DNA of 37,343 bases. It comes from Ferrimicrobium sp. (GTDB lineage: Bacteria > Actinomycetota > Acidimicrobiia > Acidimicrobiales > Acidimicrobiaceae). This document shows positions 4,711 through 31,534 of this stretch, one piece after another. A program made the position numbers and the translations under genes. Position 1 is the stretch's first letter. The number at the start of each line of letters is the position of its first letter. The notes under the pieces were generated by a model that saw nothing but the letters and a program-made list of their open reading frames with translations, was not told the origin of the DNA and did no database searches. The stretch is taken from contig NZ_DAHVNP010000081.1 of the NCBI RefSeq assembly GCF_027319265.1, positions 1 to 37,343 on the forward strand, written 5' to 3'.

Positions 4711-6897
4711 GTGGAGAGCGAAATCTATCGGCCCCTTGGCCTCACCGACGACGAATTCAGTTTGATTGTTCACCAACTCGGTCGAGAACCGAACCTCGTC
4801 GAGCTCGCGATGTTCTCCATCATGTGGTCAGAGCACTGTTCGTATAAGTCATCACGCATCCATCTCCGGCGCCTCCCCTCCGAAGGCCCGAGGGTGATCA
4901 TGGGGCCAGGAGAGAACGCGGGTGTCGTCGCAGCGACCGAGACGATCTCGGTGGCCCTCCGCATGGAGAGCCACAACCATCCAAGTGCAATCGAACCAAC
5001 CCAAGGAGCCGCAACGGGGGTGGGAGGCATCCTCCGCGACATCTTTACCGTCGGTGCCCGGCCAACCGCACTCCTTGACTCGCTGTGGATGGGCAATCAA
5101 GACAACCCCAGATCCCGCTGGATCTTCGATGGTGTCGTCGGCGGCATCTCCTCCTACGGCAATGCCGTCGGCGTACCAACAGTCGGAGGAGAGATCCACT
5201 TTGCAGCACCCTATGGAGAGAACCCGCTGGTCAATGTTGTTGCTGTTGGCATCGCCGAGACAAGTCAACTGGTGCGAGCACTTGCCACCGGCGCCGGCAA
5301 CCAGGTCGTCCTCCTCGGTGCCGCGACCGGGCGAGATGGGATTGGCGGCGTCTCGGTGCTCGCGTCCAGCGGTTTTGACGAGACGTCAGCTGATAAACGA
5401 CCCTCCGTGCAGGTTGGTGATCCATTCGAGGAGAAGAAGTTGATCGAGGCGTGCCTGCGCCTCCTTGACGCCAAGCTCGTGGTGGGCATCCAGGATCTCG
5501 GTGGAGCCGGGCTCACCTGTGCCACCTCCGAGACCGCTGCCAATGCCGGCAACGGCATGAAGGTCTGGGTTGACAGGGTGCCCGTCCGAGAGACCGAGAT
5601 GACCCCGATGGAGATCCTCTGCTCGGAGTCCCAGGAGCGCATGCTCGCCATCGTGACACCGGAGAACCTACCGGAAGTTCTCGCCATCTGTGCGGATCAA
5701 GAGGTGCTGGCGACCGTCATCGGCGAGGTAACCCCGCCTGACGAGGAAGGGACCTACGCAGGCCGTGGTGTGCTGCGAGCCTACTTCGATGGCGAACTCG
5801 TCGCCGAGATTCCAGCCGCTGCTCTCGCTGATGAGGCGCCGCTCTATGATCGGCCTCAGCAAGAGCCAGCCGACCTTCATCTCCGAACGAGTCAGAGCGT
5901 CGTGGCGCCCTCGGAGTGGCATGGTATCGCACTCGCCGTCCTTACATCACTCGATTTCGATCCGAGCTCCATCTATCGTCGCTATGACCACATGCTCTTT
6001 CGCAACACGTTGGTTACCCCGGGGGCCAATGCGACCCTCCTCGCGATTCGAGCTCCGGGCATCGGCAATACCGATCTCGCCATGGCGCTCTCAGTCGATG
6101 GCAACCAACTCTGGTCACGTGCGGACCCCAAATGGGGTACCGTAGCCGTCGTGGCCGCCTCGCTCGCGAACCTCGCCTGTGTCGGTGCTACCCCGGTAGC
6201 GCTTGTCGACTGCCTCAACTTTGGCAACCCCGAGCACCCTGAGGTGATGTGGCAGTTGTCACAGGCCATCGATGGGATCGCCGAGATCGGACGCGTCTTG
6301 GGAGTTCCAGTGATCGGCGGCAATGTCAGTCTCTACAATGAGGCCAACGGTCACGATATCGATCCAACCCCGGTCGTATCTACCATCGGTTTTCGCCCAC
6401 TTCCCACCCACCCGATCCCGGATCCCCGTCGAGCCCATGGGACCGTCGTCTTGGTCACCACCGGTGAGGCGCCAACCCTCACTGGATCGGTCGCTGCATC
6501 CCTCATCGATGATCGTCGGGGAGCCTTCCCCTCTATCGACCTTGCACGCTTCGATCATCTGCTCCACGTGGTTGCCGAGCTGGTCGTCGATGACGAGCTC
6601 GTCAACGCCGCCCACAACCTCGGCGCTGGCGGCCTCCTGGCGGGAGCCGTCCGGCTCGCGCGTCTTGCCGCAACGGGATTAGCGATCCATCCACCAGTCC
6701 AGAGCCCAGAGGCGCTCCTCGGGGAACACCCTGGCCGTTTCCTCCTAACCACCACGGAACCAGCTGCCCTGCTCGATCGTCTCAATCAGGAGGGTCTCGA
6801 AGCCGTCGTGATCGGCGAACTGGGTGGTGATGCCATCACCTGCGAGGATTGGCTCAAAATCCCCGTCGACGAATCAGCCAAGATTGGAGTGCGATGA
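4711..6897 (+). CDS. purL: Phosphoribosylformylglycinamidine synthase, PurL subunit
   Basis: A 728-residue protein of the small PurL type, which works with separate PurS and PurQ subunits to convert FGAR to FGAM using glutamine-derived ammonia. SEHCSYKSS (residues 40-48), GPGENAG (65-71) and ESHNHPS (86-92) are the characteristic active-site and ATP-binding segments, and the GGNVSLYNE motif of the second half is present. Length fits the family (about 740). The GTG at 4711 is the first start after an in-frame stop (4705-4707); no strong ribosome binding site lies close to it. No purQ or purS is in the window. The stop overlaps the start of a glycosyltransferase gene as ATGA, an unusual partner for purL. 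Confidence 0.95.
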   Translation: MESEIYRPLGLTDDEFSLIVHQLGREPNLVELAMFSIMWSEHCSYKSSRIHLRRLPSEGPRVIMGPGENAGVVAATETISVALRMESHNHPSAIEPTQGAATGVGGILRDIFTVGARPTALLDSLWMGNQDNPRSRWIFDGVVGGISSYGNAVGVPTVGGEIHFAAPYGENPLVNVVAVGIAETSQLVRALATGAGNQVVLLGAATGRDGIGGVSVLASSGFDETSADKRPSVQVGDPFEEKKLIEACLRLLDAKLVVGIQDLGGAGLTCATSETAANAGNGMKVWVDRVPVRETEMTPMEILCSESQERMLAIVTPENLPEVLAICADQEVLATVIGEVTPPDEEGTYAGRGVLRAYFDGELVAEIPAAALADEAPLYDRPQQEPADLHLRTSQSVVAPSEWHGIALAVLTSLDFDPSSIYRRYDHMLFRNTLVTPGANATLLAIRAPGIGNTDLAMALSVDGNQLWSRADPKWGTVAVVAASLANLACVGATPVALVDCLNFGNPEHPEVMWQLSQAIDGIAEIGRVLGVPVIGGNVSLYNEANGHDIDPTPVVSTIGFRPLPTHPIPDPRRAHGTVVLVTTGEAPTLTGSVAASLIDDRRGAFPSIDLARFDHLLHVVAELVVDDELVNAAHNLGAGGLLAGAVRLARLAATGLAIHPPVQSPEALLGEHPGRFLLTTTEPAALLDRLNQEGLEAVVIGELGGDAITCEDWLKIPVDESAKIGVR

Positions 6898-9416
6898 CAC
6901 CGGCCAAACGCAGAACCCCTACGACCTCAGCGATGGTCACCCGCACCGTCGATGCCCAGCCGATCAGCGAGGTTGACTACCTCCATCTCGTTCTCGATAA
7001 TCGCACCATCGAGCGTGATGATCTCGCTCGCCAAATCGCCGAGCGTAACGCGCAGCTCGCTGAGATGCTGGGTTCGACGAGTTGGCGGTTGACCAAGGGA
7101 TTTCGACAGCTTTCAACCGGGCTTCGCAGCGAGGTCATCCCGCGCCTCTCCGAGGAGCTTGGACGATCCCAGCGACTCATAGCGCTCGCCGAAAAGTACA
7201 TGCCCTCGGTGGGCACACGGCTGAACCTCTCCAGCACGAGTCGGCCAGCGGCATCGACTGACCGCGCCCCGGTCATCGAAGGAGATGAAGACGAGGATGA
7301 GGAGCTCGATATCGAGCCTTATCTACGCTGGGTTCGCGAGTTCGATGATGCCATCGACGAGGATGCTATTCGCTCTTATACCGCCCAGCTTGGCTATCAG
7401 CCCACCATCTCCATCGTCATGCCGACTTATAACTCCCCCATCGTCTACCTACGCGAAGCCATCGAGTCCGTCCGCGCCCAGCTCTATCCCAATTGGCAGC
7501 TCTGCATCGTCGACGATGGTTCACTGACCGCTGAGGTGCGCGAGGTCATCACCGAGTACGTCGAGGCCGATGCGCGCATCATCGCCCATTTTCGTCCCCA
7601 TACCGGCAACATCGCTGCCGCAACCAATGACGGCATCCAGATGGCGACCGGGGAGTACGTTGGATTCCTCGATCACGACGACCTCCTCCGACCCCACGCA
7701 TTGAATTGGGTCGTCGCCACCCTCAACCAGTATCCTGACTCGGTCGTTCTCTACTCAGATGAGGACAAGCTCACCGATACCGGTCAACGCTATAGCCCCT
7801 ACTTCAAGCCAGATTTTGACCCCATCTTGCTCCTTGCCCAGAACTACATGACCCACTTCTTCGTCGTTCGCCGGGAAGAGCTCAACCAGGTCGGAGGGCA
7901 GCGAACTGGCCTGGATGGCTCCCAGGACTGGGATCTCGCGCTTCGCATCACCGAGACCGTTCGCGAAGATCAGATCCGTCATATCCCGGTCATTCTCTAT
8001 CACTGGCGAATGATCGCCGGATCAACCGCGATTCGCGTCCAACTCAAACCCGAGGCGATGCGCGCCGGCACCCAAGCCGTCGAGGATGCACTCAAGCGCC
8101 GCAGCATCGCTGCCCACCTTGAACCGGTGCTCGACGATGCCTACCATCTCGTTCACTTCGAACCAACCGGGACGCCACACGTGGCCATTGTGATCCCCAC
8201 ACGCAACCATGGGGACCTGCTCGAGCAGTGTCTCAAGAGCCTCGAGATCACTGACTACCCCGACTATGAGGTGGTGATCATCAACAACGAGAGTGATGAG
8301 CCTGCGACGCTTGAGCTCCTCGCAACTATCAGCACACTTCCTCGCCATCGCGTCCTTGACTACCCGCACCCCTTCAACTACGCCGCTATGCACAACTGGG
8401 CGATCGCCCAGATCGACGCCGACTACATCTGTATGCTCAACAACGACACTGAGGCGGTCAACGCCTCCTGGCTCACCGACATGGTGGGCATGTGCTTCCA
8501 CGACAAGATCGCCGCCGTGGGGGCCAAGCTCTGGTATCCCGATCACACCATCCAACACGCAGGGGTGATTCTTGGCATCAACGGTGAGGCCGGACACCGC
8601 TACAAGATGGCCAAAGACCACGAAATTGGGCATGGCGGACGTATCATGCTCGCCCAGCGCCTCTCGGCAGTCACGGGAGCCGCGATGCTCGTCTCCAAAG
8701 CCGCCTATGACGAAGTCGGTGGCTTTGACGAGGAGTTCACCGTCTCGCTCAATGACATCGACCTCTGTCTCAAGCTCGGCGAAGCTGGCTACCATATCGG
8801 CTATTGCCCGGCCGCACAGCTGATCCACCATGAATCAAAGTCACGGGGGATGGACACCGAACCAACCAAGAAAGGGCGCTACGGCACCGAGGTCATCCGC
8901 TACTGGAAGAAGTGGGCACTCAAGGTCTTGAACGACCCCTACCACAATCCGAACGCCTCGATCGAGGACATCGGCTGCGGGGCAGCCTGGCCACCACGGG
9001 TCCAACTCCCATGGTCAGAGCGTCTGCTCGGGATCGAGCTCCCCTGTCCACGTCCTGCCCGCTACTTCCCGTCAAACCCCATCGTCGTGGAACCAGGGGG
9101 CGAGATCGAATGCAATCTGGTCCTCCCTGATCAACTGGATCCTCGGATCGACCAGGTGACCTTCTGGGCGATGGAGATCGAGCCCTACGCAATCGAGGAC
9201 CACGCCTTTGTGATCGACGAGACGACCGTAAAGGCCGTGCCCTCGTGGCTGCATTTTGATCCCGTCACCATCAGACTCGAAGACCCCCGACATACCCCCT
9301 CGACCCTCCGGCTGCGCCATGAGGGCAACACCCCCATCCTCCTCGAAGCGGTCACCATCGACGGGGCCCTCACCCTCCGCGTGAAGGTTGAACAGAAGTC
9401 CAGCTCGAACAGCTGA
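6894..9416 (+). CDS. Tandem GT2-family glycosyltransferase with N-terminal coiled coil
   Basis: An 840-residue cytoplasmic protein with two GT-A glycosyltransferase domains of family 2. Residues about 20-70 form a helical segment ending in MLGSTSWRLT (58-67), then an acidic linker. The first GT2 domain starts at PTISIVMPTYN (170) and keeps VDDGS (206-210), LDHDD (259-263, the metal-binding DxD) and YSDED (287-291). The second starts at PHVAIVIPTRN (428) and keeps LNNDTE (515-520) and NDIDLCL (620-626). A C-terminal beta-rich region (about 715-840) may bind glycan. This architecture belongs to glycosyltransferases that build cell-surface polysaccharides. The ATG at 6894 overlaps the purL stop and has GGAG upstream, so the frame's upstream extension was not used. 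Sugar and acceptor cannot be told. Confidence 0.9.
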   Translation: MTPAKRRTPTTSAMVTRTVDAQPISEVDYLHLVLDNRTIERDDLARQIAERNAQLAEMLGSTSWRLTKGFRQLSTGLRSEVIPRLSEELGRSQRLIALAEKYMPSVGTRLNLSSTSRPAASTDRAPVIEGDEDEDEELDIEPYLRWVREFDDAIDEDAIRSYTAQLGYQPTISIVMPTYNSPIVYLREAIESVRAQLYPNWQLCIVDDGSLTAEVREVITEYVEADARIIAHFRPHTGNIAAATNDGIQMATGEYVGFLDHDDLLRPHALNWVVATLNQYPDSVVLYSDEDKLTDTGQRYSPYFKPDFDPILLLAQNYMTHFFVVRREELNQVGGQRTGLDGSQDWDLALRITETVREDQIRHIPVILYHWRMIAGSTAIRVQLKPEAMRAGTQAVEDALKRRSIAAHLEPVLDDAYHLVHFEPTGTPHVAIVIPTRNHGDLLEQCLKSLEITDYPDYEVVIINNESDEPATLELLATISTLPRHRVLDYPHPFNYAAMHNWAIAQIDADYICMLNNDTEAVNASWLTDMVGMCFHDKIAAVGAKLWYPDHTIQHAGVILGINGEAGHRYKMAKDHEIGHGGRIMLAQRLSAVTGAAMLVSKAAYDEVGGFDEEFTVSLNDIDLCLKLGEAGYHIGYCPAAQLIHHESKSRGMDTEPTKKGRYGTEVIRYWKKWALKVLNDPYHNPNASIEDIGCGAAWPPRVQLPWSERLLGIELPCPRPARYFPSNPIVVEPGGEIECNLVLPDQLDPRIDQVTFWAMEIEPYAIEDHAFVIDETTVKAVPSWLHFDPVTIRLEDPRHTPSTLRLRHEGNTPILLEAVTIDGALTLRVKVEQKSSSNS

Positions 9417-9465: not shown

Positions 9466-12400
9466 TTATCCGTTGAACGTTTCAGGTGGGGATCCAGCTG
9501 AAGTCGCATCACTCGGAGCAGCGGACGTGCCAGCCGTTGTAGTATCCGATTGAGTGAACCCAAAGGCACCAGGCAGACCATCGCTTGGATATCCCGTCGG
9601 TGTGAAAAGCCCATCGCCGTTCGCCAGCAAGTCGTAGTTGTTGGATGCGTATGAGTCCTGGTAAGAGGCGTACTCTGACTCCATCCCGGTCGAGTTGACA
9701 GACGCGCTTGTGAACTGACCTCCAGCCGAAACCTGCGGGAGGATCGAAAGTGCGTTACAAGGCGCTGACGTGTAGCCAGGGTACGGATTGAGCGCGCAGA
9801 TATTGTCGGCTGAAATATTAGAAAACATCGGACTTTCCATGATCCACTCGGCGGATTCGGTTCCGGGAGAACCGCCGAAGATCGAGCCGTAGATGGATGC
9901 CTCGAACGTCTCGGTAATCGAGTAGCTCGCGTTCTGTGTTACGTCGGTCAGGGTCATGGTCCAGTTCTGCGAAGCGTTCTTCACGATAGCGACCGACATG
10001 GTATCGCCAGGCTCGACAGTGATGGGGGTTCCGCTTGATGTCTCAAGCGAGACGTAGGTAGCTGGCGCTGCATCAGACGGAGTGATCGTCTCGACCCACG
10101 GTTGCACCTGGAAGTTCGGGGAAACATCAACCCCCGCTTGGATAAGTTGCTGGCTGCTCTCGCCGTCAATACCAACCCACTCGGCGAGGGTACAAAGCCC
10201 ACCCGGCTCGGTATTGGTGCAGATCGTGTTTTGGGTCGTGCTCAGGGTCGGGACGACGAACGTACCGCTGACTGAGGTGATCGCATCCGATGCGGACGAG
10301 GCATTATCGATCATTCCGGCCCAGTTGTAAGCCTCTGTTATGGAGATGGGAACAGTAGAAGAGCTCGTGTTGGTTATCGAGATTGGGACCGTAGCAAAAA
10401 CGACTCCTGTTGAGGACTCGATCGACACGTCGAGGTTGTTCAGATCGCTCGATAGCGTGCCAGCGATCGCGCCAGATGCGCTAAAAGTCAATGAGGACGG
10501 CCATATTGTGCCAGCGTTGGACTCTGCGAACGTATATCCGTTGCCCTCTGATGTTGGCACGGCCAACTGAATGTCAGGCGATGAGCCAGAACTAAACGAA
10601 CTCGATGAGAGAGTCGGGGCCAAGAGTGTAACGCCAATATCTTCGCTGGTGGACTTTCCTCCCGAGGTGACCGTAATCGGCTGCGCATAGGTTTGGCCCA
10701 TACTGCTCGCACTTACGTTTGCTGTGTTGAGCACGAGCGTGCTCCCGCTCGCCATCACCGGGTCCGATCCCGTGCTGGCATCTGACCAACTGTAGATGCC
10801 ATCGCCGCCGGTTGCCTGGAGTTGCACTGCATTGAGTGGATACATCGATACAGACGTTGGGTTCGTGATCGTCGGAGCGAGCTCTACGACGTTGATAGCG
10901 ACTGTACCGTAGCCAATGGTCGTCCCGTCGTAACGGATTCCAACCCCAAGGCCAGACACACTCGAAGATATCGTACCGGTGATCGTTCCAGATGACGAGA
11001 GGTAGAGACCGCTCGGCCAACTACCTGTCAACGTGTAGGAATACCCTGCCCCGCTAGGATTTTGAGCAACTTCCAACTGTTCATTGACGGAGTACTCCGG
11101 GGTGGTGCTGGTGGTCGCCGGTGTGCTCGTGGTGAACGTGGATGTCTCAAGGGTTGCTTGAGGGTACGTGATCCCAACCGTGGCGCTCGCCGATGTCCCG
11201 TCGCCGGAGACGGTGAGGCTGAGAGCTGTAGGGATGGTCCCGGTAAAGGCGCTCAGGGTCGAGGGGTCGAGGGTTAACTGACCGGACGATGAGAGGGTGA
11301 GCCAGCTCGGTAGTGAACTCGCACTCCACATGTAGCTGCCGTTACCACCACTTGCTTGGAGCTGCACCGGCGCTCCTGCGATGAGACTGATCGATGTCGT
11401 GCTGATCGATACAGGGGTTGGCGAAGGCTGTGGCTGAGGCTGTGGATTGGGTTGAGGCTGTGGTTGAGGCTGTGGATTGGGTTGAGGCTGTGGTTGTTGT
11501 GCTTGAATAACAAATCGCTGGGGTGCCTTGGGTGGAATAACAATGGCCAACTTCCCGTGATCCATAGGAACGTTTGGAAGTGCTGGTGCGCCACCAATCG
11601 CCAAGACTTGCCCGTTGCCAAGAATGACGTAATAACCCGATCCATTGGGGTTCTGCATCAAACTCGATGCTTTGGCCGGTAGCGGATGAGCACCCGATAG
11701 GCCCGTATAACCAAGGCCATAGGTCGAACCAGAGAACTTAGCATCGCCGAAGTCAAAGACCCCTCCGTCAGCTCCCACCATGTAGTAGCCGTTGCCCGAT
11801 GGAGTGGCAATCGCACCGATGATTGGGGCGTTCAGGGGCTTGGAACCAGACAGACCCGTGAGGCCATAGGTATAGGTTGAGCCGAGGAATGGAGCGTTGC
11901 CAAAGTCAAAGACACCTCCATCTTTGGCGATCAACCAATAGCCCTCCCCCGAGGAGGTTGAGACAATAGCAGTGATCGGCGCATTGAGCGGTTTTGCACC
12001 CAAGAGTCCGGTGACTCCATAGGTGTAGGTGGAGCCGAGGAATGGAGCGTTGCCAAAGTTGAACACCCCTCCATCTGATGCCACGAGCCAGTAGCCACCG
12101 CCAGACGGGTCGGCTGCGATTCCGACGATTGGGGCGTTCAGGGGCTTGGAACCAGACAGACCTGTTAACCCATCGGTATAGGTATCGCCATAATACTTTG
12201 CGTCACCATAGGCATAGACGTGACCGGACTTGGTGACGATCCAATAGCCGCCTCCATCAGGTGTTGGAGCTGCGCCAACAATCGTGTGAGATCCACTCAC
12301 CGAACCATAGGCCTGCGCCCCATTTTCGCCGGTCACCGTGCCAGTCTGGGAGATCGCAATAAAGCCGGATCCTTGCTGAGAAGTACTTGCATAAGCAGTT

Positions 12401-12477
12401 GGTGTCGCCAAGACAACTGATGCAGCGAGCAACGCACCACTTGATGCCAGCGCTAGTAGTGACTTCCTGATTCGCAT
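9466..12477 (-). CDS. Secreted G1-family (eqolisin) glutamic peptidase with N-terminal repeats and Ig-like region
   Basis: A 1003-residue exported protein. MRIRKSLLAL followed by a hydrophobic core and AYA (28-30) is a Sec signal peptide. Residues about 35-305 hold five to six repeats of roughly 51 residues of the GGYW(L/I)V..DGGVF.FG.A.F.GSTY type, probably propeller-like. A Gln/Pro/Asn linker (328-355) follows, then an Ig-like Ser/Thr-rich region (about 356-705). The C-terminal domain matches peptidase family G1: NWAG (718-721), TFVVP, EWVGIDG, LIQAGVD with candidate catalytic Gln780, and SAEWIMESP with Glu877/Glu881, one of which should be the catalytic Glu. These enzymes work at acid pH. 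The ATG at 12477 has AGAAGG upstream; the frame extends 44 codons further without protein-like sequence. Confidence 0.85.
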   Translation of the reverse strand: MRIRKSLLALASSGALLAASVVLATPTAYASTSQQGSGFIAISQTGTVTGENGAQAYGSVSGSHTIVGAAPTPDGGGYWIVTKSGHVYAYGDAKYYGDTYTDGLTGLSGSKPLNAPIVGIAADPSGGGYWLVASDGGVFNFGNAPFLGSTYTYGVTGLLGAKPLNAPITAIVSTSSGEGYWLIAKDGGVFDFGNAPFLGSTYTYGLTGLSGSKPLNAPIIGAIATPSGNGYYMVGADGGVFDFGDAKFSGSTYGLGYTGLSGAHPLPAKASSLMQNPNGSGYYVILGNGQVLAIGGAPALPNVPMDHGKLAIVIPPKAPQRFVIQAQQPQPQPNPQPQPQPQPNPQPQPQPSPTPVSISTTSISLIAGAPVQLQASGGNGSYMWSASSLPSWLTLSSSGQLTLDPSTLSAFTGTIPTALSLTVSGDGTSASATVGITYPQATLETSTFTTSTPATTSTTPEYSVNEQLEVAQNPSGAGYSYTLTGSWPSGLYLSSSGTITGTISSSVSGLGVGIRYDGTTIGYGTVAINVVELAPTITNPTSVSMYPLNAVQLQATGGDGIYSWSDASTGSDPVMASGSTLVLNTANVSASSMGQTYAQPITVTSGGKSTSEDIGVTLLAPTLSSSSFSSGSSPDIQLAVPTSEGNGYTFAESNAGTIWPSSLTFSASGAIAGTLSSDLNNLDVSIESSTGVVFATVPISITNTSSSTVPISITEAYNWAGMIDNASSASDAITSVSGTFVVPTLSTTQNTICTNTEPGGLCTLAEWVGIDGESSQQLIQAGVDVSPNFQVQPWVETITPSDAAPATYVSLETSSGTPITVEPGDTMSVAIVKNASQNWTMTLTDVTQNASYSITETFEASIYGSIFGGSPGTESAEWIMESPMFSNISADNICALNPYPGYTSAPCNALSILPQVSAGGQFTSASVNSTGMESEYASYQDSYASNNYDLLANGDGLFTPTGYPSDGLPGAFGFTQSDTTTAGTSAAPSDATSAGSPPETFNG
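11430..11495. repeat. DNA repeat encoding the Gln/Pro/Asn linker
   Basis: A short GGTTGAGGCTGTGGTTGAGG-like unit is repeated in direct orientation within the peptidase gene. It encodes the alternating Gln-Pro/Asn-Pro linker (residues 328-350) between the N-terminal repeats and the Ig-like region. Its length may vary between strains by slippage in multiples of six bases. Confidence 0.6.
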
Positions 12478-12813
12478 ACTGATACCTTCTGTTCTGCCAA
12501 CATGGATGTATCGGCATGCAGATATTGGTTCTGAACGCGCAGTGGCATCATGCTCGCAACGATAAACAGAAGACAAGGTTTGAATAACCCGGGTTGTGCG
12601 TCCTGGCAAAGCCGCCAGAGAACGCAGTAGTGCGGGCGATGCACAGCCGTAGGTAGCTCCAGATCACTTGGTGTGATAAGGCCTTCACGCGCAACAAGAC
12701 CCAACCTTCAATCGAGCGCGCGTGAGATCCGCCACGTCTTTGCGAACAATCTGTACCAAAGAATCACTATGTGACAAGAGATCACCAGTGACTGAGGTTC
12801 ACCATTGTGTAGA
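12478..12813. other. Intergenic region upstream of the G1 peptidase
   Basis: No gene is supported. It should hold the peptidase promoter and the 3' end of the preceding glycosyltransferase transcript. A perfect 10-bp palindrome AACCCGGGTT lies at 12586-12595. A weak minus-strand TTGTCT - 18 bases - CATGAT pair downstream of it (about 12546-12575) is the best promoter candidate I can see, but it is not compelling. Confidence 0.4.
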
Positions 12814-22564: not shown

Positions 22565-25111
22565 CTAGATAGAGGAAAGCGTATAGCTACCCGTCATAGC
22601 AACCGGAAGGACATACTGGAATGAGTACCCATCAGTCATGAACTGTGAAGCAGTCATGAACTGATACAGCGTACCGTCATTGCTTACCCAGACACCGGCT
22701 TTTCCAAGCGGCTGCACCAAGGTACCGTTCGCACTGGTCGATGCATTGGTCGGTGTTGAACCGAAGCCCATGACCACCATCGCACCAGTCATCTTCTGGA
22801 TTGAAGCAAGTTCCGCCGGAGTTGCAATCCCGGTAGCGACGCCACCAGCATACTCATAGATGGTCGAGCCGAACTGGACGAGCGCACCATTAGCCATGGT
22901 CGCAGCCGCCGTCGGAGGAGCACCAGCACCAGCGGTGAGGCCACCTGCATTCGGGACTGGGATCACCTGACTGACGACATAACCATCCTTCATGAACTGT
23001 GACATAGAGGAGAACTGGTAGATCTCACCATTGGTACCAACAACCCAGTAGCCAGAGGTTCCAACAGGGTTGATCAACGTTCCAGGAGCAGGCATAGTGG
23101 CTGTTGGGAAGGTACCCGACACCACACTGCTGTGATCCATCTTCATGATGTCACTGAGCACCGTCGGGGTCGAAATGCCAAAGGCATAGCCGCCCGCGAT
23201 CACGTCAATCTGACCACCAGACTGAATGAGTGCACCGTTGGGGTACGTAGTCGCGGCTTTTGGAACGCTGGTTACCGAAACCGGCGCAGCCTCAACACTA
23301 CCGTTGATACCAATCGAATACTGATTGGAAGCAGTACTCGGGTTGATGGCGCCATCGACAGAAACCGAGAATACATCTCCACTAGAGACTGTATTAGCCA
23401 AGGTTACATACACATCTGGTCCTGATACATCCACGCCTATGGGTTGCCCCGATGCGGAAGAAGTGGTCGTATCCGTAATGGAGTAGTCAGAAGCACTAGT
23501 AGGCAAAATCGTGTTTGAAGGGAAGATTAGCTCCAACTGTGACTCACCACCAGAGTTACCAAGTGTTGTCGACCCGGCACTAGTCTGACCCGTCATATTA
23601 GCAGTAGCCTCTAGACCACTAACCGTGTAATTAGACGTAGCCTGCAGACCCGCATTGCTCAAGCTCACAGGGACACTCCCGGGAATCGTCGTAAAGTCTT
23701 CAGAGGCACTCGCGGTTGCTGCCAACGAATCTTTGTTAGTAGCCACCGAAACCGAGTAACTATTCTGTCCCGAAACACCGGTCACCGTCGCTCCAAAGAT
23801 GGTGATTGATACATCTTGACCAGAATTCACCGTTGGCATCGCCACACTTGTGACACCACTAGCGGTGGCGTAGCTCTCAGCAACAGTTGTCGCAGACGAT
23901 CCACTACCCACTGTCACAGCCGCTGTCCCTGATGTCGGTAGAGCCAGACCACTTCCAGGAGTAATGATCACGCCAGAAGAACCAGCAGTCACCCCATCCG
24001 TAGCGACAAAGCTAGCAACAAAGTTAGCCGTGGCACCTGTAGTCGGATTAGCAGACGACGTACTGGGCATAAGCGACGTACTCAATGAGCCAATCTGAGT
24101 TCCGTAGGAAATTGTAGCGGAATCGTTTGAATTACCAGAGTCACTCACCGTGACTGGTGAAGAACCTGCCTGAGAGGGATTAATCGCACCCGTAATGGTG
24201 ACGTTAACCGTATCGCCACTTACCAGCGGCGTGGTAAGAACCAAACTAGCTGACGATGCTCCTGTCGACGGATCTGAGGCTGTCACCCCAGTGACCGTAT
24301 CAGTCGACTTAGCCCCAGACGAATTGGTCACAGTAACTGTGTACTGACTAGATGCTCCGGGGAGATCCACCGACGCATCTCCAGTTGCACTAGGAGTAAA
24401 AGTCAACACAAACGGCGCGGCAGACGTTCCAAGACCAGTGGCACCGCTGCTGACTGCAATGGGGCCAACATTATAGGTAACGTCACTTTGACCAAGACCG
24501 ACGTTACTCGCAGTAGCACCGAAGCTCACCGAGTTAGCAGGGATCGTATAGTTGGTCTGAACCACGAGAGTATCGGTACTCGTATACATGCTACCGGTCT
24601 CAGTTACAGCGGAAGTTTCAGACGGATTCGAAACACCAATGAACTCAATCTGCACTGAGGCACCGGAGGTGACAACCGTAGGCAGTGTCAAAGTTACCTG
24701 ATCAGCTGCACTCGTTGACTTATAAGCCGCAAAACCAACCTGAGTGCCGTTAACAGTGACGAGCGCACTAACACCGCTCGCGAAAGCCGAACCATTAGTA
24801 ATGGTCGTCCCAGGCAGAGTAATGCTAACCGTGCCCGGGGTAGAACTAGATCCGACGCCGTCAGTAGCCACGAACGATGCCACATAGTTGGACCCCGGTG
24901 TGACTGTAAAGCCCGTAACCGATCCAGTGCCGACGGTGTAATAACCCGAAGTCACATTCGGCGTTGTCGCATAGGCAGTACCTGAAGCAATCAAAATTCC
25001 ACCAACACCACCAACCGTCAGAGCCGCAGCCCCTGCCAAACGAACCAAACCATTCGACGAGAGCTTTGAACTCCCACTAATTCCGGCAGTCTTCTTCTTG
25101 AATCTGCTCAT
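22565..25111 (-). CDS. Large secreted Ser/Thr-rich surface protein with duplicated C-terminal module
   Basis: An 848-residue exported protein. A basic N-terminus (MSRFKKKTAG) and a hydrophobic stretch ending GTAYA (44-48) form a long signal peptide. Residues about 50-610 are Ser/Thr/Val/Gly-rich beta sandwich-like sequence with loosely repeated units (NFVASFVATDGV, ITGAINPSQ, VSDSGNS), typical of S-layer or adhesin proteins. The last 230 residues contain two copies of a module of about 116 residues: (P)NGALIQ..G..., AGG.A.GI.TP..L..I.KM, GTL..P.G..G.WV...G..YQF....QFM.DGY. I know no name for this module. It has no LPXTG motif or C-terminal membrane helix, so it is not an obvious sortase substrate. 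The ATG at 25111 has AGGAGG upstream. By eye the gene is less GC-rich than its neighbours, which could reflect high expression or transfer. Confidence 0.8.
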   Translation of the reverse strand: MSRFKKKTAGISGSSKLSSNGLVRLAGAAALTVGGVGGILIASGTAYATTPNVTSGYYTVGTGSVTGFTVTPGSNYVASFVATDGVGSSSTPGTVSITLPGTTITNGSAFASGVSALVTVNGTQVGFAAYKSTSAADQVTLTLPTVVTSGASVQIEFIGVSNPSETSAVTETGSMYTSTDTLVVQTNYTIPANSVSFGATASNVGLGQSDVTYNVGPIAVSSGATGLGTSAAPFVLTFTPSATGDASVDLPGASSQYTVTVTNSSGAKSTDTVTGVTASDPSTGASSASLVLTTPLVSGDTVNVTITGAINPSQAGSSPVTVSDSGNSNDSATISYGTQIGSLSTSLMPSTSSANPTTGATANFVASFVATDGVTAGSSGVIITPGSGLALPTSGTAAVTVGSGSSATTVAESYATASGVTSVAMPTVNSGQDVSITIFGATVTGVSGQNSYSVSVATNKDSLAATASASEDFTTIPGSVPVSLSNAGLQATSNYTVSGLEATANMTGQTSAGSTTLGNSGGESQLELIFPSNTILPTSASDYSITDTTTSSASGQPIGVDVSGPDVYVTLANTVSSGDVFSVSVDGAINPSTASNQYSIGINGSVEAAPVSVTSVPKAATTYPNGALIQSGGQIDVIAGGYAFGISTPTVLSDIMKMDHSSVVSGTFPTATMPAPGTLINPVGTSGYWVVGTNGEIYQFSSMSQFMKDGYVVSQVIPVPNAGGLTAGAGAPPTAAATMANGALVQFGSTIYEYAGGVATGIATPAELASIQKMTGAMVVMGFGSTPTNASTSANGTLVQPLGKAGVWVSNDGTLYQFMTASQFMTDGYSFQYVLPVAMTGSYTLSSI

Positions 25112-25759
25112 TACCTGGATATACCTCCTGAAATACAAGACCAACAGCCACTAGACTATCATGCTTCTTCGCTACTACCGTCCATGGACCCCGTAAGTGT
25201 ACCACATCAACCATCGAGCCGGTGTAGTTTCTACGAAACCAAGTACACCTAAGCAACTGTACCAGCAAAACAGGCAAGAACAGGCTTTTACATAAAAATT
25301 CATCGATAAACTTCTAACCTCACGTTGAACCTCAGTATCGTTAGCTCTGCCAGGCTCTACGTAGCTGTCCACAGCCAGATAGAACTCCCGTGGTGATCTC
25401 TCCTGGAACATTGTCGCGGATGACCTGCACTGTGTGCGGCGCAGCTCTCTCGCATTATGTCCATCGACCGAATCTCGCACGCAAACATCAGTCATGTCTT
25501 GCACCCAGGCTCAACACGATCTTCACCCAACTCTCGCCCATGCCCAAATCGAGCAATACAAATATTGATAAAGCGACTCAACGACAGAGCAGGAGGCATC
25601 TGTATTCTGATTAACCGAGTAAGTGACGATGTCGCCGTTGAAACGAAGTTGGTCCTGCGTTCTCAGGCATACCTCATTTTCCGCCATGTGGCCCTTGATA
25701 GAGTGCCAAAACATACTGCCCAAGATACCCACCAACGAGGCCCTTGCTCTCTGATGATC
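25112..25759. other. Intergenic region upstream of the surface-protein gene, downstream of clpB
   Basis: No gene is supported in 648 bases; the small open frames here lack ribosome binding sites and protein character. It is more AT-rich than the coding regions, notably 25281-25320, and carries a hairpin (25221-25249) in what is probably the surface-protein mRNA leader. A long leader of this kind is often found in front of abundant surface-layer genes. No clear terminator for clpB is seen. Confidence 0.5.
25221..25249 (-). promoter_or_regulatory. Hairpin in the leader of the surface-protein gene
   Basis: GGTGTA-GTTTC, loop TAC, GAAAC-(CAAG bulge)-TACACC form an 11-bp stem with a 4-base bulge, about 110 bases upstream of the start codon at 25111. 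A stem in a long leader can stabilise mRNA or regulate translation. The function is inference; only the pairing is seen. Confidence 0.4.
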
Positions 25760-28240
25760 TCACGCGATGACCAACTCATCCCCCACCCCATCAACGGTGA
25801 TCGTCGACCCCTCCGGGTACTTCCCCGATAGGATCGCGACCGCCACCGGGTCGCCCACCATCTTCTGAATCACTCGCTTCAAGGGTCGAGCCCCGAACGC
25901 TGGATCATACCCTTGGGTCGCAAGGATCCGCTTGGCGTCATCGGTCACCACGAGTTCGAGCCGACGATCGGACAGGCGTCGGCGCAGTGCATCGAGCTGG
26001 ATGTCGACGATCTTCGTGAGGTCTGCCTCGGTGAGTGATGCAAAACGGATGATCTCATCGATCCGGTTGACAAACTCCGGCTTAAAGAAGAATCTTGGAT
26101 CCTCCGCCAGGTTCGATGTCATGATCAAAATAGTGTTGGTGAAGTTGACCACCCGACCCTGACCGTCGGTTAGACGACCATCATCCAAGATGGCAAGGAA
26201 GATATTGAAGACATCCGAGTGCGCCTTCTCGATCTCATCAAAGAGAATCACGCTGTAAGGACGTCGCCGTACCGCCTCGGTGAGTTGTCCACCTTCGTCG
26301 TAGCCGACGTATCCAGGAGGCGCACCGACAAGGCGTGCCACCGCATGGCGTTCCTGGTATTCAGACATGTCGATTCGAATGACAGCGCGTTCATCGTCGA
26401 AGAGGTACTCCGCCAATGCCTTGGCCATCTCGGTCTTACCGACACCAGTCGGTCCCAGGAAGAGGAAACTCCCGATCGGCCGGTGTGGATCGGAGAGTCC
26501 CGCACGCGAGCGCCGGATAGCGTTGGCCACCGCCGAGACCGCCTCGTCTTGTCCAATGACGCGCTGATGGAGCGCCTCCTCGATATGGAGAAGCTTCTCC
26601 ATCTCGCTCTCTAAGAGCTTGGAGACCGGGATCCCGGTCGCCTTGGCCACCACCTCAGCGATGTCCTCGGGGTCGACCTCCTCCTTTAACATCCGCACCC
26701 CACCCTGGAACTCGGCAAGCTCTCGGGTTGCCTCATCGATCTGGCGGGAGAGCTCAGGAACCTGACCATAGCGGATCTCAGCCGCCCGATCGAGATTGCC
26801 GATGCGTTCCTGATTATCGGCCTCGGCCTTCAACTGTTCCAGTCGCTCCTTCATCTCACGAATCTTGCCGATCGCATCACGCTCGAGTTGCCACTGAGCA
26901 TTGAGAGCGGCAAGCTCTTCCCGATCATCGGCCAACTCACGCTCGATCCGATTGAGTCGCTCCATGGAGGCGGGATCACTCTCCTTGGCGAGTGAGATCC
27001 GCTCGATCTCAAGCTGGCGGATACGCCGCTCGACCGAGTCGACCTCACTGGGTCGAGAGTCGATCTCCATCCGGAGCTTGGCGGCGGCCTCATCGATGAG
27101 ATCGATCGCCTTGTCGGGAAGGAAACGGTTCGTTACATACCGATCCGAAAGGACCGCGGCCGCCACCAGAGCTGAATCCTGGATACGCACCCCATGGTGG
27201 ACCTCGTAGCGCTCCTTTAGGCCACGCAGAATCCCGATCGTGTCCTCGACCGAGGGTGGTGGAATGATGAGCTGCTGGAACCGGCGCTCGAGGGCGGGAT
27301 CCTTCTCGATGTATTTGCGATACTCGTCAAGCGTCGTCGCTCCAATCATCCGCAACTCACCACGGGCGAGCATCGGCTTTAACATGTTGGAGGCATCCAT
27401 AGAACCCTCAGCGGCCCCAGCGCCTACCACCGTGTGCATCTCGTCGATGAAGGTGATGACCTCGCCGTTGGAGTCCTTGATCGCCTTGAGGACCGCCTTT
27501 AGCCGCTCCTCGAACTCACCACGGTACTTCGCACCTGCCACCATGGAACCAAGGTCCAGAGCGATGAGTCGTTTGTTCTTCAACCCCTCGGGAACATCAC
27601 CCTCGACGATTCGCTTGGCCAACCCCTCGACGATGGCAGTCTTACCAACTCCTGGCTCGCCGATCAGTACGGGGTTGTTCTTGCTCCGACGAGAGAGGAT
27701 CTGGATGATCCGCCGAATCTCCTCGTCTCGCCCGATCACCGGGTCGATCTTGCCCGCTCGTGCGTCAGCAGTCAGGTCACGTCCATACTTCTCTAACGCC
27801 TGGAGTGTCTCCTCCGGGTTCTCGCTCGTGACTCGGTTGTCCCCACGGATCTCACGCAACGCGGTCTTGATCTGTTCAGCGGTCACCCCGAACACGGTGG
27901 GCAACTGGATCAGCAGATGCTCGACGGAGAGATAGGAGTCACCCAACTCCTGACGAGTCTTATCGGCGGCCTCAAGGGTTGCGATCAGCGCGCTTGAGAA
28001 CTGTGCCTGACTCCCGTAGGCCTTGGGTAGCTTCCCGATCGCCTCTAAGAGTTTGGTCCTCGACGCTCCGATCTGAACGCCCAAGCGCTCAAGAATGGGC
28101 AAGGCGATGCCATCGGGTTGTCCAAGGAGTGCAACCGCGAGGTGCTCCTTCGTGACCTCTGGGTTCGAACTCCGCCTGGCAAGCTCAACCGCCGCCTCGA
28201 TCGCCTCGCGGGTCTTGACTGTCCACGTACTCTGATCCAT
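25760..28240 (-). CDS. clpB: ClpB-type disaggregase (Hsp104 family AAA+ ATPase)
   Basis: An 826-residue chaperone that extracts polypeptides from aggregates together with DnaK. The N-domain (1-145) is followed by the first AAA+ module with GEPGVGKT (194-201) and FIDEMH (264-269), a long coiled-coil middle domain (about 400-525) that is the DnaK contact, and the second AAA+ module with GPTGVGKT (596-603), the GYVGYDEGG pore loop and VILFDEIEK. Both ATPase sites look intact. It is shorter than the usual 850-870 residues: after MTSNL (707-711) only AEDPR precedes [14 protein letters not shown], where relatives have some 10-25 more residues. The ATG at 28240 has AGGTGA upstream. It is downstream of the dnaK operon but about 1 kb away, and I find no HAIR site before it. 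Confidence 0.96.
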
Positions 28241-28257
28241 CGTTCACCTCATCTTCG

Positions 28258-28554
28258 TTACGATTCCATCTGTTCATCGTCATCTGGTTGACGCTCTTCA
28301 CAAACCCCAATCACCTGTTCTAACGCCAACAACTGCCACCCCGCTAGGGCCAGGTGACTCTTTTCTCTCACCCCCAAGGTCGCCGGTGACCGCCAAAGGA
28401 TCCGGCGATCATGCCAGCCGCCTAACGGCCGTCGTCCTAGGCGACTGGATTCCATCGAGTCATCGGTGCCAGTAGGTGGTTCTGGGTCCAACTCGCCCTC
28501 GTCCAGCGCATATCTCCTGGCATTCCGGGAATGGAGACTCATCGTTCGTATCAC
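28258..28554 (-). CDS. Doubtful small ORF ending 17 bp before clpB
   Basis: Up to 98 residues from a GTG at 28554; an ATG four codons in (28542) is an alternative. The C-terminal third (LALAGWQLLALEQVIGVCEERQPDDDEQ) looks protein-like, with an amphipathic helix and acidic tail, and the stop lies 17 bp before the clpB start with the clpB ribosome binding site between. The N-terminal part is Arg/Pro-rich and unconvincing, and no ribosome binding site supports the start. I do not recognise a family. Confidence 0.3.
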   Translation of the reverse strand: MIRTMSLHSRNARRYALDEGELDPEPPTGTDDSMESSRLGRRPLGGWHDRRILWRSPATLGVREKSHLALAGWQLLALEQVIGVCEERQPDDDEQMES

Positions 28555-28586
28555 GTTCGCGCCCTCTCGCTCGCCTGCTGGGTCCT

Positions 28587-28770
28587 ACTGGTTCAGTTGC
28601 ATTGGTCTCGCCCCACTGGTCCAGTTGCATTGGCTCCACCGCCGGTTTCAACTGGTTCACCACGTCGGTTGGTCTCTCCAGAGTTGTACCCCATTGTCTG
28701 ACTGGCTCTGCCGCGTTGGCCGTACTGCATGGGCACTGTTGCAGTGGTCCCGTTTGCATTGGCCATGTTA
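28587..28770. repeat. Degenerate direct repeats with ACTGGTYCAGTTGCATTGG core
   Basis: ACTGGTTCAGTTGCATTGG (28587-28605) recurs as ACTGGTCCAGTTGCATTGG (28615-28633), a 28-base period. Weaker relatives follow (AACTGGTTCAC near 28650, GCAGTGGTCCCGTTTGCATTGG near 28740-28763). The region belongs to no recognised gene. Confidence 0.55.
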
Positions 28771-28880
28771 GATCGAGCCTGTTTGCTACCACCTGTACAT
28801 CACTAGCCATTGTCTCGCATCTGCGCCATGAGCTGTATTGACCAAAGGAACCTGTTGGGAGTAAAAGGTGCGGGTCACTG

Positions 28881-28912
28881 TCTCGTTGTGGTGTTGTCTC
28901 GTTGTGGTGTTG
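28881..28912. repeat. Tandem 16-bp duplication
   Basis: TCTCGTTGTGGTGTTG occurs twice head to tail (28881-28896, 28897-28912) and the next bases begin a third copy (TCT). It lies in the hspR-clpB gap. Confidence 0.85.
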
Positions 28913-29040
28913 TCTCTTCGCATCGCCAACCCTTGTATTATGCTCTTGCCAGTCCAAGAAGCAGCTCCTTCTCTCGGTTGCTACGTTCTCCAGTCCGATC
29001 GGCACTGATGACGCCCTGACTCGAGGTGTGATGGCGAAGA

Positions 29041-29068
29041 GATCGACGACGGTTACGTGCCGTCGATC
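29041..29068. terminator. Hairpin about 140 bp downstream of hspR
   Basis: GATCGACG (29041-29048), a 12-base loop and CGTCGATC (29061-29068) pair perfectly; an alternative 6-bp register CGACGG/CCGTCG exists inside it. There is no U-tract on either strand, so termination is only one possibility. It is the strongest stem between hspR and clpB. Confidence 0.35.
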
Positions 29069-29204
29069 GTCGACCACCGGCGCGTTCTCCAACCGTCACG
29101 ACTCGGACCCCCGTTCTCGCCCTCACGTCCTAGTCCCCATGGGCTAGGTTGTCGCACCTCAGTTGCTCGGTAAGCCGACCCACAATGACGACGAACCAGA
29201 GTCC

Positions 29205-29630
29205 TTAGCGTCGAATCTGGGTGGTCTTGACGTGTACCACCGCCTGGGAAAGCGGAACGAGATCACGCCGGTAATGGCGATGGATCTCCTTCTCCCGCAA
29301 CCGTGCCAGCTCTCGCTCACGTTCGAGCTCAGCTCTGAGTTCGGCGACTTCAGCCTCTAACTCGATCACTCGGCGCACACCTTCGATATTGAGCCCTGCA
29401 TCGGTCAGCTCGGCAATTCGCCGTAGCCGCTCGAGATCGTGTTCGCTATAGCGCCTTGAGCCGCCCCCGGTGCGGTTCGGTTCAAGCAGACCCCGTCGTT
29501 CATAGACCCGTAAGGTCTGAGGGTGCATGCCAGCGAGCTCGGCAGCCACCGAGATCACATACACCCCCCTTCCGATGGCGGCACCCTCGAAGGCGCCGCG
29601 CCTGGCCTGGCCTCCGATATCACTTGCCAT
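29205..29630 (-). CDS. hspR: HspR, MerR-family heat-shock repressor
   Basis: A 141-residue MerR-type regulator. After a short Gly/Arg-rich leader, VYVISVAAELAGMHPQTLRVYERRGLLEPNRTGGGSRRYSEHDLERLRRI (about 23-72) is the winged-helix DNA-binding domain characteristic of HspR. A coiled coil (about 88-115, RVIELEAEVAELRAELERERE) should mediate dimerisation. HspR represses the dnaK operon by binding HAIR sites, with DnaK as co-repressor; one such site lies at 33430-33450. The ATG at 29630 lies 7 bp after the dnaJ stop, and the GGAGG serving it is inside the last dnaJ codons, so translation is coupled. It is the last gene of dnaK-grpE-dnaJ-hspR. Confidence 0.95.
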   Translation of the reverse strand: MASDIGGQARRGAFEGAAIGRGVYVISVAAELAGMHPQTLRVYERRGLLEPNRTGGGSRRYSEHDLERLRRIAELTDAGLNIEGVRRVIELEAEVAELRAELERERELARLREKEIHRHYRRDLVPLSQAVVHVKTTQIRR

Positions 29631-29637
29631 CTAGCCT

Positions 29638-30741
29638 CTAGCCTCCTACCTTCTCTTCCCCTTTGTCCCCAAAGACCTTGTGATAGTCCTGGAGATACTT
29701 CTTCTGTCGTGCATCGAGTGCCGCCGGAACGACGATCTCTACCGTTACCAGCAGATCACCGACGGTATTCTTCTTCCTTGGGTTTGGCAATCCCCGCCCT
29801 CGGACCCTAAAGGTCTGTCCCGAATGGGTACCTGCCGGAATCTTGAGCGTCACTGGGCCAGTCAACGAGGGTGCGCTCACCGTACCCCCAAGGGCAGCAT
29901 CAGCGAAGCTGATCGCAACCTTGGTGGTCAGATCAGCTCCCTTGCGACCAAAGCGAGGATCCGGATCGACGTGAACCTTCACCAGGAGGTCACCCGAGGG
30001 TCCTCCGCTCTTGCCGGGAGCACCCTTGCCACGAACCCGGATCGTCTGTTCTGGCTCCACCCCAGCCGGGATACGAACCTTCACGGTGCGAGCGCGGTGT
30101 TCGGTTCCTGTTCCCCTACAGGCGGGACAGGGATTTTCGATAATCAGTCCTCGACCATGACAGGCTGGACAGGGCTGGGAGAAGGAGAAGAATCCCTGGT
30201 TATCAGAGACCGATCCCGATCCGTTACACCGGGCACAGACCTTTGGTACCGTTCCTGGGGCGGCACCGGTACCGTTACATACAGAACATGAGGTCTCCCC
30301 GATCACCAACACCGAAGCCGTTGCCCCTGCGGCAGCGTCGGCAAAGCTGAGACGAACCTCGGCGCTCTGGTCCTCGCCACGCTTTGGGCCACTCGTCCGT
30401 TTCCCTCGATTAAAGAGGTTCCCGATCAGATCGCCAAGATCCTCCGAGTGTACATTAAAGTTTCCGTTGCCTGAAGCGTTGGAACCCATACCACCGAGGC
30501 CCGAGGCCATCGGGCCCATTCGGCGAACCTCGTCGTACTCCTTGCGCTTGGTAGCGTCACCGAGCACGTCGTAGGCGGCCGAGACCTCCTTGAACTGTTC
30601 CTCATGGCCAGCGTTCGAGTCAGGATGGTATTTTCGAGCAAGCGCTCGGTAGGCCTTGGTTATCTCCTTGTCCGTCGCCGTCGATGGAACTCCGAGGACC
30701 TTATAGTAATCCTTTTCGAACCACTCGCGCTGTGGTGGCAT
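29638..30741 (-). CDS. dnaJ: DnaJ (Hsp40) co-chaperone
   Basis: A 367-residue type I J-protein that delivers substrates to DnaK and stimulates its ATPase. The J domain (about 10-75) contains the YHPDSN motif. The Gly/Phe region is short and rich in Gly/Ser/Asn (GLGGMGSNASGNGN). The zinc domain has all four repeats: CSVCNGTG, CARCNGSG, CPACHGRG and CPACRGTG. Two beta-sandwich substrate domains follow. The start MPPQREWFEKDYYKVLGV is that of the DnaJ1 encoded with dnaK in Actinomycetota. The ATG at 30741 has GGAGG upstream and lies 16 bp after the grpE stop. Its last codons supply the ribosome binding site for hspR. Confidence 0.97.
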   Translation of the reverse strand: MPPQREWFEKDYYKVLGVPSTATDKEITKAYRALARKYHPDSNAGHEEQFKEVSAAYDVLGDATKRKEYDEVRRMGPMASGLGGMGSNASGNGNFNVHSEDLGDLIGNLFNRGKRTSGPKRGEDQSAEVRLSFADAAAGATASVLVIGETSCSVCNGTGAAPGTVPKVCARCNGSGSVSDNQGFFSFSQPCPACHGRGLIIENPCPACRGTGTEHRARTVKVRIPAGVEPEQTIRVRGKGAPGKSGGPSGDLLVKVHVDPDPRFGRKGADLTTKVAISFADAALGGTVSAPSLTGPVTLKIPAGTHSGQTFRVRGRGLPNPRKKNTVGDLLVTVEIVVPAALDARQKKYLQDYHKVFGDKGEEKVGG

Positions 30742-30757
30742 TCGTTACCTCCATCTC

Positions 30758-31534
30758 TCACGAACCGGTGACCTTCACCATCGCGGGTCGCAGAGTCTGT
30801 CCGTTCCAGCGGTAGCCAACACGAAAGACCTCGCTCACCGTCGGTTCACCGTCTCCTTCATCGTGGGCAACCGCCTCCGCCTCTTCGGGATTGAAGCGCT
30901 TGCCGAGGGGCTCGATCACCTCTAAGCCCTCCTTGGCTAGCACCTCCAAGAAGGAGGCACTGATCTGGGAGAGCACCGAGGCGACCTCGTCCGATCCTGA
31001 CTCCGAGGTCGCATGAGCGAGTGCAAGTGTCAAGGTGTCAAGCGCTGGAAGCAACTTGGTCACCAACGCCCGAGATCCTGCGGCCCCAAGCTCACTCTGC
31101 TGTCTGGCGACTCGCTTTTTGTAGTTCTCAAAGTCAGCCTGGAGACGCTGCAGTGCCTCGAGATAGGAGTCCCGTTCGCGCTCAGCATCTGCGAGGGGAT
31201 CGTTGATCTCAGGTTCAAAATCGAGCGCATCGAGATCGAACTCCTCCCCGGCCTCCTCTCCACGGATGGAGGGATCCTCATCAGCTTTGGCATCTAGCCC
31301 CTCATCAGACGGGTTGACCTCCGGTTCTTGATCATCTGGGGTGTTTTCACCCGTCCTGCTGGTCGCGTCCGAGCGCCCACTCCCAGAGGAGGACGCCTCT
31401 CCGTCGAAAGGCGTCTCCTCCTTAGCTCTGTCGTGCCCTTGGGCACCCTGGTGCTCGTTGGCACCCTGGGAACCCTGAGTACGGTGGGAATCGTGAGCGC
31501 TCTGGTGCTCTTCGTCGAATCTCTCATCGGCCAC
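30758..31534 (-). CDS. grpE: GrpE nucleotide-exchange factor
   Basis: About 258 residues. The C-terminal half is the conserved GrpE: a long dimerising helix (DAERERDSYLEALQRLQADFENYKKRV), then the beta domain ending EVFRVGYRWNGQTLRPAMVKV. It releases ADP from DnaK. The first 110 residues are an unusually long disordered region, His/Gln/Gly-rich at first (NEHQGAQGHD) and then acidic, longer than in most relatives. I chose the GTG at 31534 because AAGGAG at the end of dnaK (31543-31548) is 8 bases away. The ATG at 31540 (overlapping the dnaK stop as TGATG) and a GTG at 31543 are alternatives in the same frame but sit too close to that site. Confidence 0.93.
   Translation of the reverse strand: MADERFDEEHQSAHDSHRTQGSQGANEHQGAQGHDRAKEETPFDGEASSSGSGRSDATSRTGENTPDDQEPEVNPSDEGLDAKADEDPSIRGEEAGEEFDLDALDFEPEINDPLADAERERDSYLEALQRLQADFENYKKRVARQQSELGAAGSRALVTKLLPALDTLTLALAHATSESGSDEVASVLSQISASFLEVLAKEGLEVIEPLGKRFNPEEAEAVAHDEGDGEPTVSEVFRVGYRWNGQTLRPAMVKVTGS

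Follow-up and report, generated by a model that had tools for sequence, protein, structure and literature searches.

A glutamic (G1) peptidase domain behind a predicted beta-propeller and an Ig-like stalk in Ferrimicrobium sp.

The gene considered here lies on the minus strand, at 9466-12477, of a 37,343-nucleotide stretch of Ferrimicrobium sp. DNA (contig NZ_DAHVNP010000081.1 of assembly GCF_027319265.1; the whole stretch is the window below) and encodes a protein whose C-terminal part is, by computation, a glutamic peptidase of family G1. With a rough probability of 0.7, the protein is a secreted, modular, acid-gated endopeptidase set on a stalk, with a propeller serving for retention or targeting. 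A tethered acid protease, as proposed in an earlier note made from the letters of this DNA, is the most likely role; it is partly supported, and binding by the propeller is presumed. The enzyme is of the known G1 type, its modular form recurs in the order, and no description of the architecture was found. Of its parts, the propeller is the most interesting and the least well explained.

The earlier note's account of a 1003-residue secreted-type protein with a C-terminal peptidase, repeats and a linker agrees with the reading frame and the layout present in the sequence, as does its Gln/Pro linker followed by a long Ser/Thr-rich region. The features, all on the minus strand, are as follows.

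9466-12477 (-): whole gene, 1003 amino acids (aa) and stop; ATG at 12477, TAA at 9466-9468, read from the sequence
12485-12490 (-): AGAAGG, 7 bases from the ATG, read from the sequence; Shine-Dalgarno-like, a putative function
12388-12477 (-): residues 1-30, putative Sec-type signal peptide with basic start, hydrophobic core and terminal AYA, by eye
11524-12372 (-): residues 36-318, GYW/DGGVF repeats, a predicted beta-propeller (AlphaFold2 (AF2), VIA-align, DNA repeat)
11407-11505 (-): residues 325-357, Gln/Pro-rich linker with no charged residues (composition; DNA repeat family D2)
10354-11406 (-): residues 358-708, Ser/Thr-rich, an estimated four or so immunoglobulin (Ig)/cadherin-like domains (composition, AF2, VIA-align)
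9547-10335 (-): residues 715-977, G1 peptidase domain (PF01828 over 718-884; VIA-align to 2ifw_A)
10138-10140 (-): Gln780 codon, counterpart of Q53 of scytalidoglutamic peptidase (SGP) (profile alignment, family rows)
9835-9837 (-): Glu881 codon, counterpart of SGP E136 (profile alignment, family rows)
9757-9798 (-): residues 894-907, loop bounded by Cys894 and Cys907, perhaps an enlarged substrate-side beta-loop

The peptidase domain

How secure is the assignment to G1? The Pfam profile PF01828 (Peptidase_A4, equivalent to G1) matches residues 718-884 with an E-value of 6.6e-20 over profile positions 2-146 of 206, scoring 71.9 bits where the curated cut-off is 22.3. The same profile has four places above its cut-off in the protein's own genome and zero matches in a control set of 14 well-known genomes. 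When a profile built from 98 relatives was compared with solved structures, aspergilloglutamic peptidase was matched at 1.5e-32 and SGP at 9e-29. In the alignment with SGP (1s2b), Gln780 falls on Q53 and Glu881, the last Glu of AEWIxE, on E136, and excerpts of PMC6154417 give these two residues as the SGP catalytic dyad. G1 membership, for which the earlier note had suggested a Pfam search, is borne out by the profile, the dyad and the predicted fold, and its catalytic Gln780 holds too. For the glutamate it had offered position 877 or 881, and only the latter stands, sitting on E136 and being Glu in 129 of the 130 rows with a letter there; 877 is Glu in 118 of the 130 and Asp in the other 12.

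From 134 reading frames the family alignment takes 140 domain rows. Both dyad positions have letters in 118 rows, and in 117 of these the pair is Gln and Glu, in a family whose profile leans towards motif-bearing domains because it was seeded with them. The exception, L174 (frame 1428-2984 of G290:C34), is a G1 homolog whose dyad is replaced by Lys and Gln, and for that reason it is probably a non-peptidase. Could the window protein likewise be mainly a structural or adhesive surface protein, with a G1 domain that is a dead remnant? That one relative has neither catalytic residue is a precedent of a kind, but in the five rows of alignment A1 both dyad residues are invariant together with the WVGIDG, W794 and E796 positions, and this idea deserves hardly any credence. 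A separate oddity in the search is L195 (G208:C270), an open frame of 2431 aa that PF01828 matches twice, both times weakly (22.2 and 21.7 bits).

Residues 352-1003 were modelled with AF2 from 98 aligned sequences and no templates, giving a mean predicted local distance difference test score (pLDDT) of 75.5 and a predicted template modelling score (pTM) of 0.53. Residues 361-530 of the model, which are 712-881 of the protein, have pLDDT blocks of 84-96 save two (72 and 55), and after the peptidase domain (715-977) comes a C-terminal tail of low confidence. Compared by VIA-align with the solved 2ifw_A, the modelled domain gives a Z of 21.4 and 2.7 A over 195 of 206 residues, whereas rows that are no peptidases stand at a Z of about 10 and below. 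With so much of 2ifw covered, the C-terminal part that Pfam leaves unmatched nevertheless takes its place in the G1 fold. Indirectly, the match to 2ifw also implies that the side chains of Gln780 and Glu881, whose failure to face each other was to count against the earlier note, would do so in one cleft. Shortly after Glu881 comes the Cys894/Cys907 pair, common, among the five A1 rows, to the window protein and its nearest ortholog, L041, only. SGP has a shorter substrate beta-loop, Cys141-Cys148 (excerpts of PMC6154417), of which the window loop may be the counterpart.

With the eqolisins of known structure (SGP, 2ifw and 1s2b; aspergilloglutamic peptidase, 1y43), the window protein shares the profile match, the Gln/Glu dyad and the beta-sandwich fold. 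However, the solved chain of SGP has 206 residues and eqolisins have a basic prosegment, and the window protein is multidomain, 1003 aa long and has no such prosegment. The first bacterial G1 peptidase to be characterised, pepG1 of Alicyclobacillus sp. DSM 15716, is acid-active and pepstatin-insensitive (excerpts of PMC3009609), and the likeness to it is that of a secreted bacterial G1 peptidase of an acidophile, if the habitat of the window's host is, as presumed, acidic. The difference is one of build: pepG1 is seen as a 28-kDa band (same excerpts) and the window protein has in addition a propeller of about 300 residues and an Ig-like stalk of about 350.

The propeller and the stalk

The repeats that occupy the N-terminal part are clear in fold. 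Residues 32-330 are modelled by AF2 with a mean pLDDT of 91.2 and a pTM of 0.89, and on this confident model the repeat module is a beta-propeller. Ranked by VIA-align, which took in only folds that Foldseek had picked up, nidogen 1npe and LRP6 4dg6 come first (Z 16.3, 3.4-3.6 A, 222-231 residues); 904 of 965 aligned chains are at a Z of at least 8, with nidogen, LRP6, NHL, TolB and G-beta structures, all of which we take to be propellers, in the top rows. The first 50 Foldseek rows are mostly of WD40 type and designed seven-bladed forms (TMq 0.38-0.56, root-mean-square deviation 6-13 A). How many blades are there? The modelled strands form five triplets, and the last strand (280-283) would make a sixth blade if joined with the two initial strands. 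Six is the best reading of the model, even as the seven-bladed designed propeller 7bid, at a Z of 15.6, ties with nidogen 1npe, LRP6 4dg6 and TRIM2 7b2r, which are presumably six-bladed. The five to six repeats counted in the earlier note thus become four units by profile, two degenerate ones by eye and six blades by the strand count of the model. In the DNA the repeat has a spacing of 153 bases, and the conserved unit is 51 aa.

While the overall fold is that of the YWTD/NHL propellers (1npe, 4dg6 and 7b2r, Z 15.2-16.3), identity to them is only 9-13% and the window propeller, unlike them, is without a Pfam match. Several searches agree on this apartness. The propeller profile A2 had no match at 0.01 among the sequences of solved structures; the whole protein had none in Pfam over the propeller residues at E-values up to 1; the module alone had none at 0.01 in NCBIfam and PHROGs; and the stand-alone repeat protein L103 had none in Pfam at 0.01. 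With the whole protein at E-values up to 1, two NCBIfam stretches, from 299 and 316, graze the end of the module and run into the Pro-rich linker. Judged by its sequence, the conserved 51-aa unit is a family of its own.

The module is not confined to peptidases. The genome of the window has 22 matches to it, falling by count in about 11 reading frames, of which two are G1 peptidases; the others include a stand-alone repeat protein, two frames of 2463 and 1434 aa, a SpoIID protein and a protein that weakly matches NHL. Across the order, 78 of the 198 genomes sampled had matches, a single genome having as many as 50; across the phylum the figure was 13 of 198, counting the window's own genome. 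That it occurs in about 11 frames, and precedes G1 in some lineages and follows it in others, is as expected of a targeting module. An unclassified propeller so widespread in the order, and joined to such varied proteins, is a good starting point for learning what these bacteria bind.

Between propeller and peptidase, the region from 358 to 708 is 35% Ser plus Thr, and its pLDDT blocks run from 55 to 87. Model residues 181-270 (532-621 of the protein) match the cadherin-type 5kj4 by VIA-align with a Z of 8.8 and 2.6 A over 88 residues, modest evidence since a best Z of 7 to 8 is common for models without a clear match. Pfam Ig models, including He_PIG (PF05345), gave no match in the stalk at E-values up to 1; He_PIG is present in the paralog L048 and also in 15 of the 98 relatives, which for the most part were given with at most 130 residues upstream. 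On this modest evidence from modelling the stalk would consist of Ig/cadherin-like domains, about four by estimate.

Control without a basic prosegment

Eqolisins have a small prosegment rich in positive charges, within a preprosegment of about 55 aa (excerpts of PMC6154417). What takes its place here? Between residues 322 and 1003 the only basic residues are R515, K608 and K833; the stalk has 2 Lys/Arg in 351 residues, and the 60 residues leading up to the G1 match have none, so that a positively charged prosegment of the fungal type is not present there. The usual large N-terminal propeptide, which the earlier note had found missing, is a mixed case: the charged prosegment is indeed absent, but 'large' does not fit a preprosegment of the length just given.

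It might be thought that fusion to the propeller led to the loss of the basic prosegment. Overall, fused frames do have fewer Lys/Arg before G1 than unfused ones (25 against 81 rows, p 1e-8). Within the window protein's own family, f1, there is no difference (23 against 9 rows, p 0.67), nor when L001, which is cut by a contig end and may be fused, is left aside (23 against 8, medians 0 and 1, p 0.47). The comparison started from 118 tree-grade rows and was reduced to 110, as 8 had fewer than 60 residues upstream, and its p-values are descriptive, the rows being related. Fusion as the cause is not supported: the 8 complete unfused frames of family f1, with 0-5 Lys/Arg in the 60 residues before G1, are about equally poor in them. 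Since these are Lys/Arg-poor as well, the lack of a prosegment looks, on sequence comparison, like a trait of the lineage rather than of fusion, although the control is thin, a single orthologous group making up 6 of the 8.

The lysine-containing zymogen of neprosin offers a different model of restraint, in which the Ig-like domain adjoining G1 would inhibit the enzyme as an all-beta pro-domain until low pH released it. The G1 model does match mature neprosin 7zvb (VIA-align Z 12.6, 4.0 A, 196 residues), and both have an all-beta domain before the beta-sandwich. However, residues 622-714, the supposed pro-domain, have a computed isoelectric point (pI) of 4.05, presumably the floor value of the pI routine, and the absence of Lys/Arg just before the G1 match applies to them also. 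In neprosin, by excerpts of PMC9343461, the zymogen has its all-beta pro-domain before the beta-sandwich, but that pro-domain, at pI 9.5, is basic and has a lysine plug, and the catalytic residues are paired glutamates rather than Gln and Glu. A basic pro-domain with a lysine plug is not what residues 622-714 are, and a neprosin-like inhibitory domain is very unlikely here. With only three basic residues from 322 onwards, neither the charged prosegment nor the lysine plug is an available mechanism.

The simplest account of control would be that the pH outside the cell is the on-switch. It may serve as one, since activity of pepG1 was observed from pH 2 to 5 (excerpts of PMC3009609).

Recurrence of the fusion

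The earlier note set the protein apart from eqolisins, which it called usually single-domain; the fusion is, however, common to many relatives. A sequence search for relatives gave six loci: three in metagenome-assembled genomes of Actinomycetes, one in such a genome of Acidimicrobiaceae, one in an Acidiferrimicrobium isolate and a weak one in Pseudomonas (30% over residues 196-290). In overlapping samples, G1 genes occur in 27 of the 60 nearest relatives, in 64 of 298 genomes from the order and in 10 of 296 from the phylum. Among the 134 distinct G1 reading frames collected, 30 have at least two GYW units, 25 of them before the peptidase and five after; counting complete frames only, units are in 21 of 112, 17 before and four after. 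Measured from one stop to the next, the complete frames have a median length of 390 aa, with five of the 112 longer than 900 aa. The five frames of reversed order, with G1 first and propeller units following, are L010, L116, L119, L146 and L203.

On the tree, built from 118 domains, the distribution of fused-before rows takes 8 changes to explain, of which the starred branches force at least 4; the 8 may be too many, as 9 of the 89 rows labelled unfused are incomplete frames that may hide a propeller. The four fused-after rows in the tree are split from all 25 fused-before rows by a branch with 97/96 support, and with that branch dividing them the two arrangements are probably separate events. 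The window gene groups with L033, L039 and L040 (100/98 support) in a subclade drawn wholly from one genus group, where it occupies three of seven genomes (G000, G001 with two genes, and G005, of G000-G006); short fragments in G003 and G004 were left unplaced, and L033 and L041, on contigs of the same length, are one place. All four genes of the subclade keep the dyad, the three others being 41-58% identical to the window protein. A paralog within the same genome, L048 on contig C29, likewise combines propeller units, a He_PIG Ig domain and G1, but in a 628-aa frame with a single He_PIG and no Gln/Pro linker, and on another branch of the G1 tree (that of L002). A genome with four G1 genes, at least two of them on propeller modules, shows a way in which these bacteria may build surface proteases and is a source of possibly acid-stable modules.

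No description of a G1-propeller fusion or of the propeller module was found among the matches listed in searches of the open-licence literature, judged largely by title or abstract, though the fusion may be noted elsewhere. Searches of the same literature gave no paper on a glutamic peptidase in Acidimicrobi-, nor on an eqolisin with a propeller, and the papers listed for PF01828 are, going by their titles, all fungal.

Mode of action

The following sequence of events is proposed. The protein would be exported by the Sec route and fold outside the cell, where a flexible Gln/Pro hinge would join the beta-propeller to some four Ig-like domains arranged as a rod, followed by the G1 beta-sandwich. 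Gln780 and Glu881 would activate a water molecule and so cut the peptide bond, and would do so only in acid, such that an acidophile's external pH would be the switch and a basic prosegment would be unneeded. The most likely job of the propeller would be to retain the enzyme at the cell surface or in the matrix, or else to steer it to its substrate, and the Ig-like rod would give it reach.

Or is the long N-terminal part there to be discarded? The protein may be a precursor which, in acid, cuts itself in the stalk or just before residue 715 to yield a free G1 enzyme, with the propeller and the Ig-like domains a folding aid or disposable carrier. Acid self-processing is indeed a property of AGP and SGP, and the N-terminus of mature pepG1 is a few residues ahead of its SNW motif (excerpts of PMC3009609); the Ser/Thr-rich and Gln/Pro-rich stretches, for their part, look exposed. 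However, SGP prefers small and basic residues (excerpts of PMC6154417), and self-cleavage in a stalk nearly free of Lys/Arg may therefore be poor. Moreover, in the five frames where the propeller comes after the peptidase, its location means that it cannot be a classical prosegment. Such a precursor is rather unlikely, though far from negligible.

Several observations weigh against the tethered, acid-gated protease proposed above. Neither a wall anchor nor a transmembrane segment was seen by eye in the 1003-aa protein, and so the enzyme may simply be free. The last part of the G1 domain is uneven, with no Pfam match after residue 884 and pLDDT blocks that range from 27 to 89 after 891. Gene context gives no hint of a substrate: the G1 protein and eight other proteins of the window, nine in all, were searched against seven stretches (L033, L039, L040, L041, L047, L048 and L049, with three orthologous places), and the G1 protein alone was matched at 1e-8. 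Two of the three places have short flanks, since in L039 and L040 one side of the gene is covered for no more than about 0.2-1 kb.

A wider proposal, held tentatively and at somewhat less than even odds, is that the GYW/DGGVF propeller is an undescribed surface or matrix targeting module, widespread in the order, which, in the manner of carbohydrate-binding modules, has been shuffled to either side of peptidases and onto other secreted proteins, with tens of matching stretches in some genomes. The G1 enzymes that it carries in this acidophile family would then have dropped the charged prosegment and would rely on outside pH alone.

Neighbouring genes

The glycosyltransferase and purine genes next to the peptidase gene were considered as parts of a system with it and set aside: with only the G1 protein matched at 1e-8, a linkage found no support in the three orthologous places, a tentative result given the short flanks. 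On the plus strand, the AIR-synthase-like (purL type) frame at 4711-6897 is overlapped at its end, by 49 bases, by the listed glycosyltransferase frame at 6849-9416, and the true start of the glycosyltransferase frame may be further in.

At 22565-25144 on the minus strand is a gene for an 859-aa, Ser/Thr-rich and apparently secreted protein, a candidate surface-layer protein, with no Pfam match at 0.001; its C-terminal part has two similar stretches with beginnings of the NGALIQ/NGTLVQ type, GYWVVGTNGEIYQF and GVWVSNDGTLYQF. A 629-aa protein with a lipoprotein-like start (LILAAC), encoded at 34331-36220 on the plus strand, had no Pfam match at 0.01. Between these two, at 25760-33426 on the minus strand, dnaK, grpE, dnaJ and clpB-like genes stand in a row as an ordinary heat-shock cluster.

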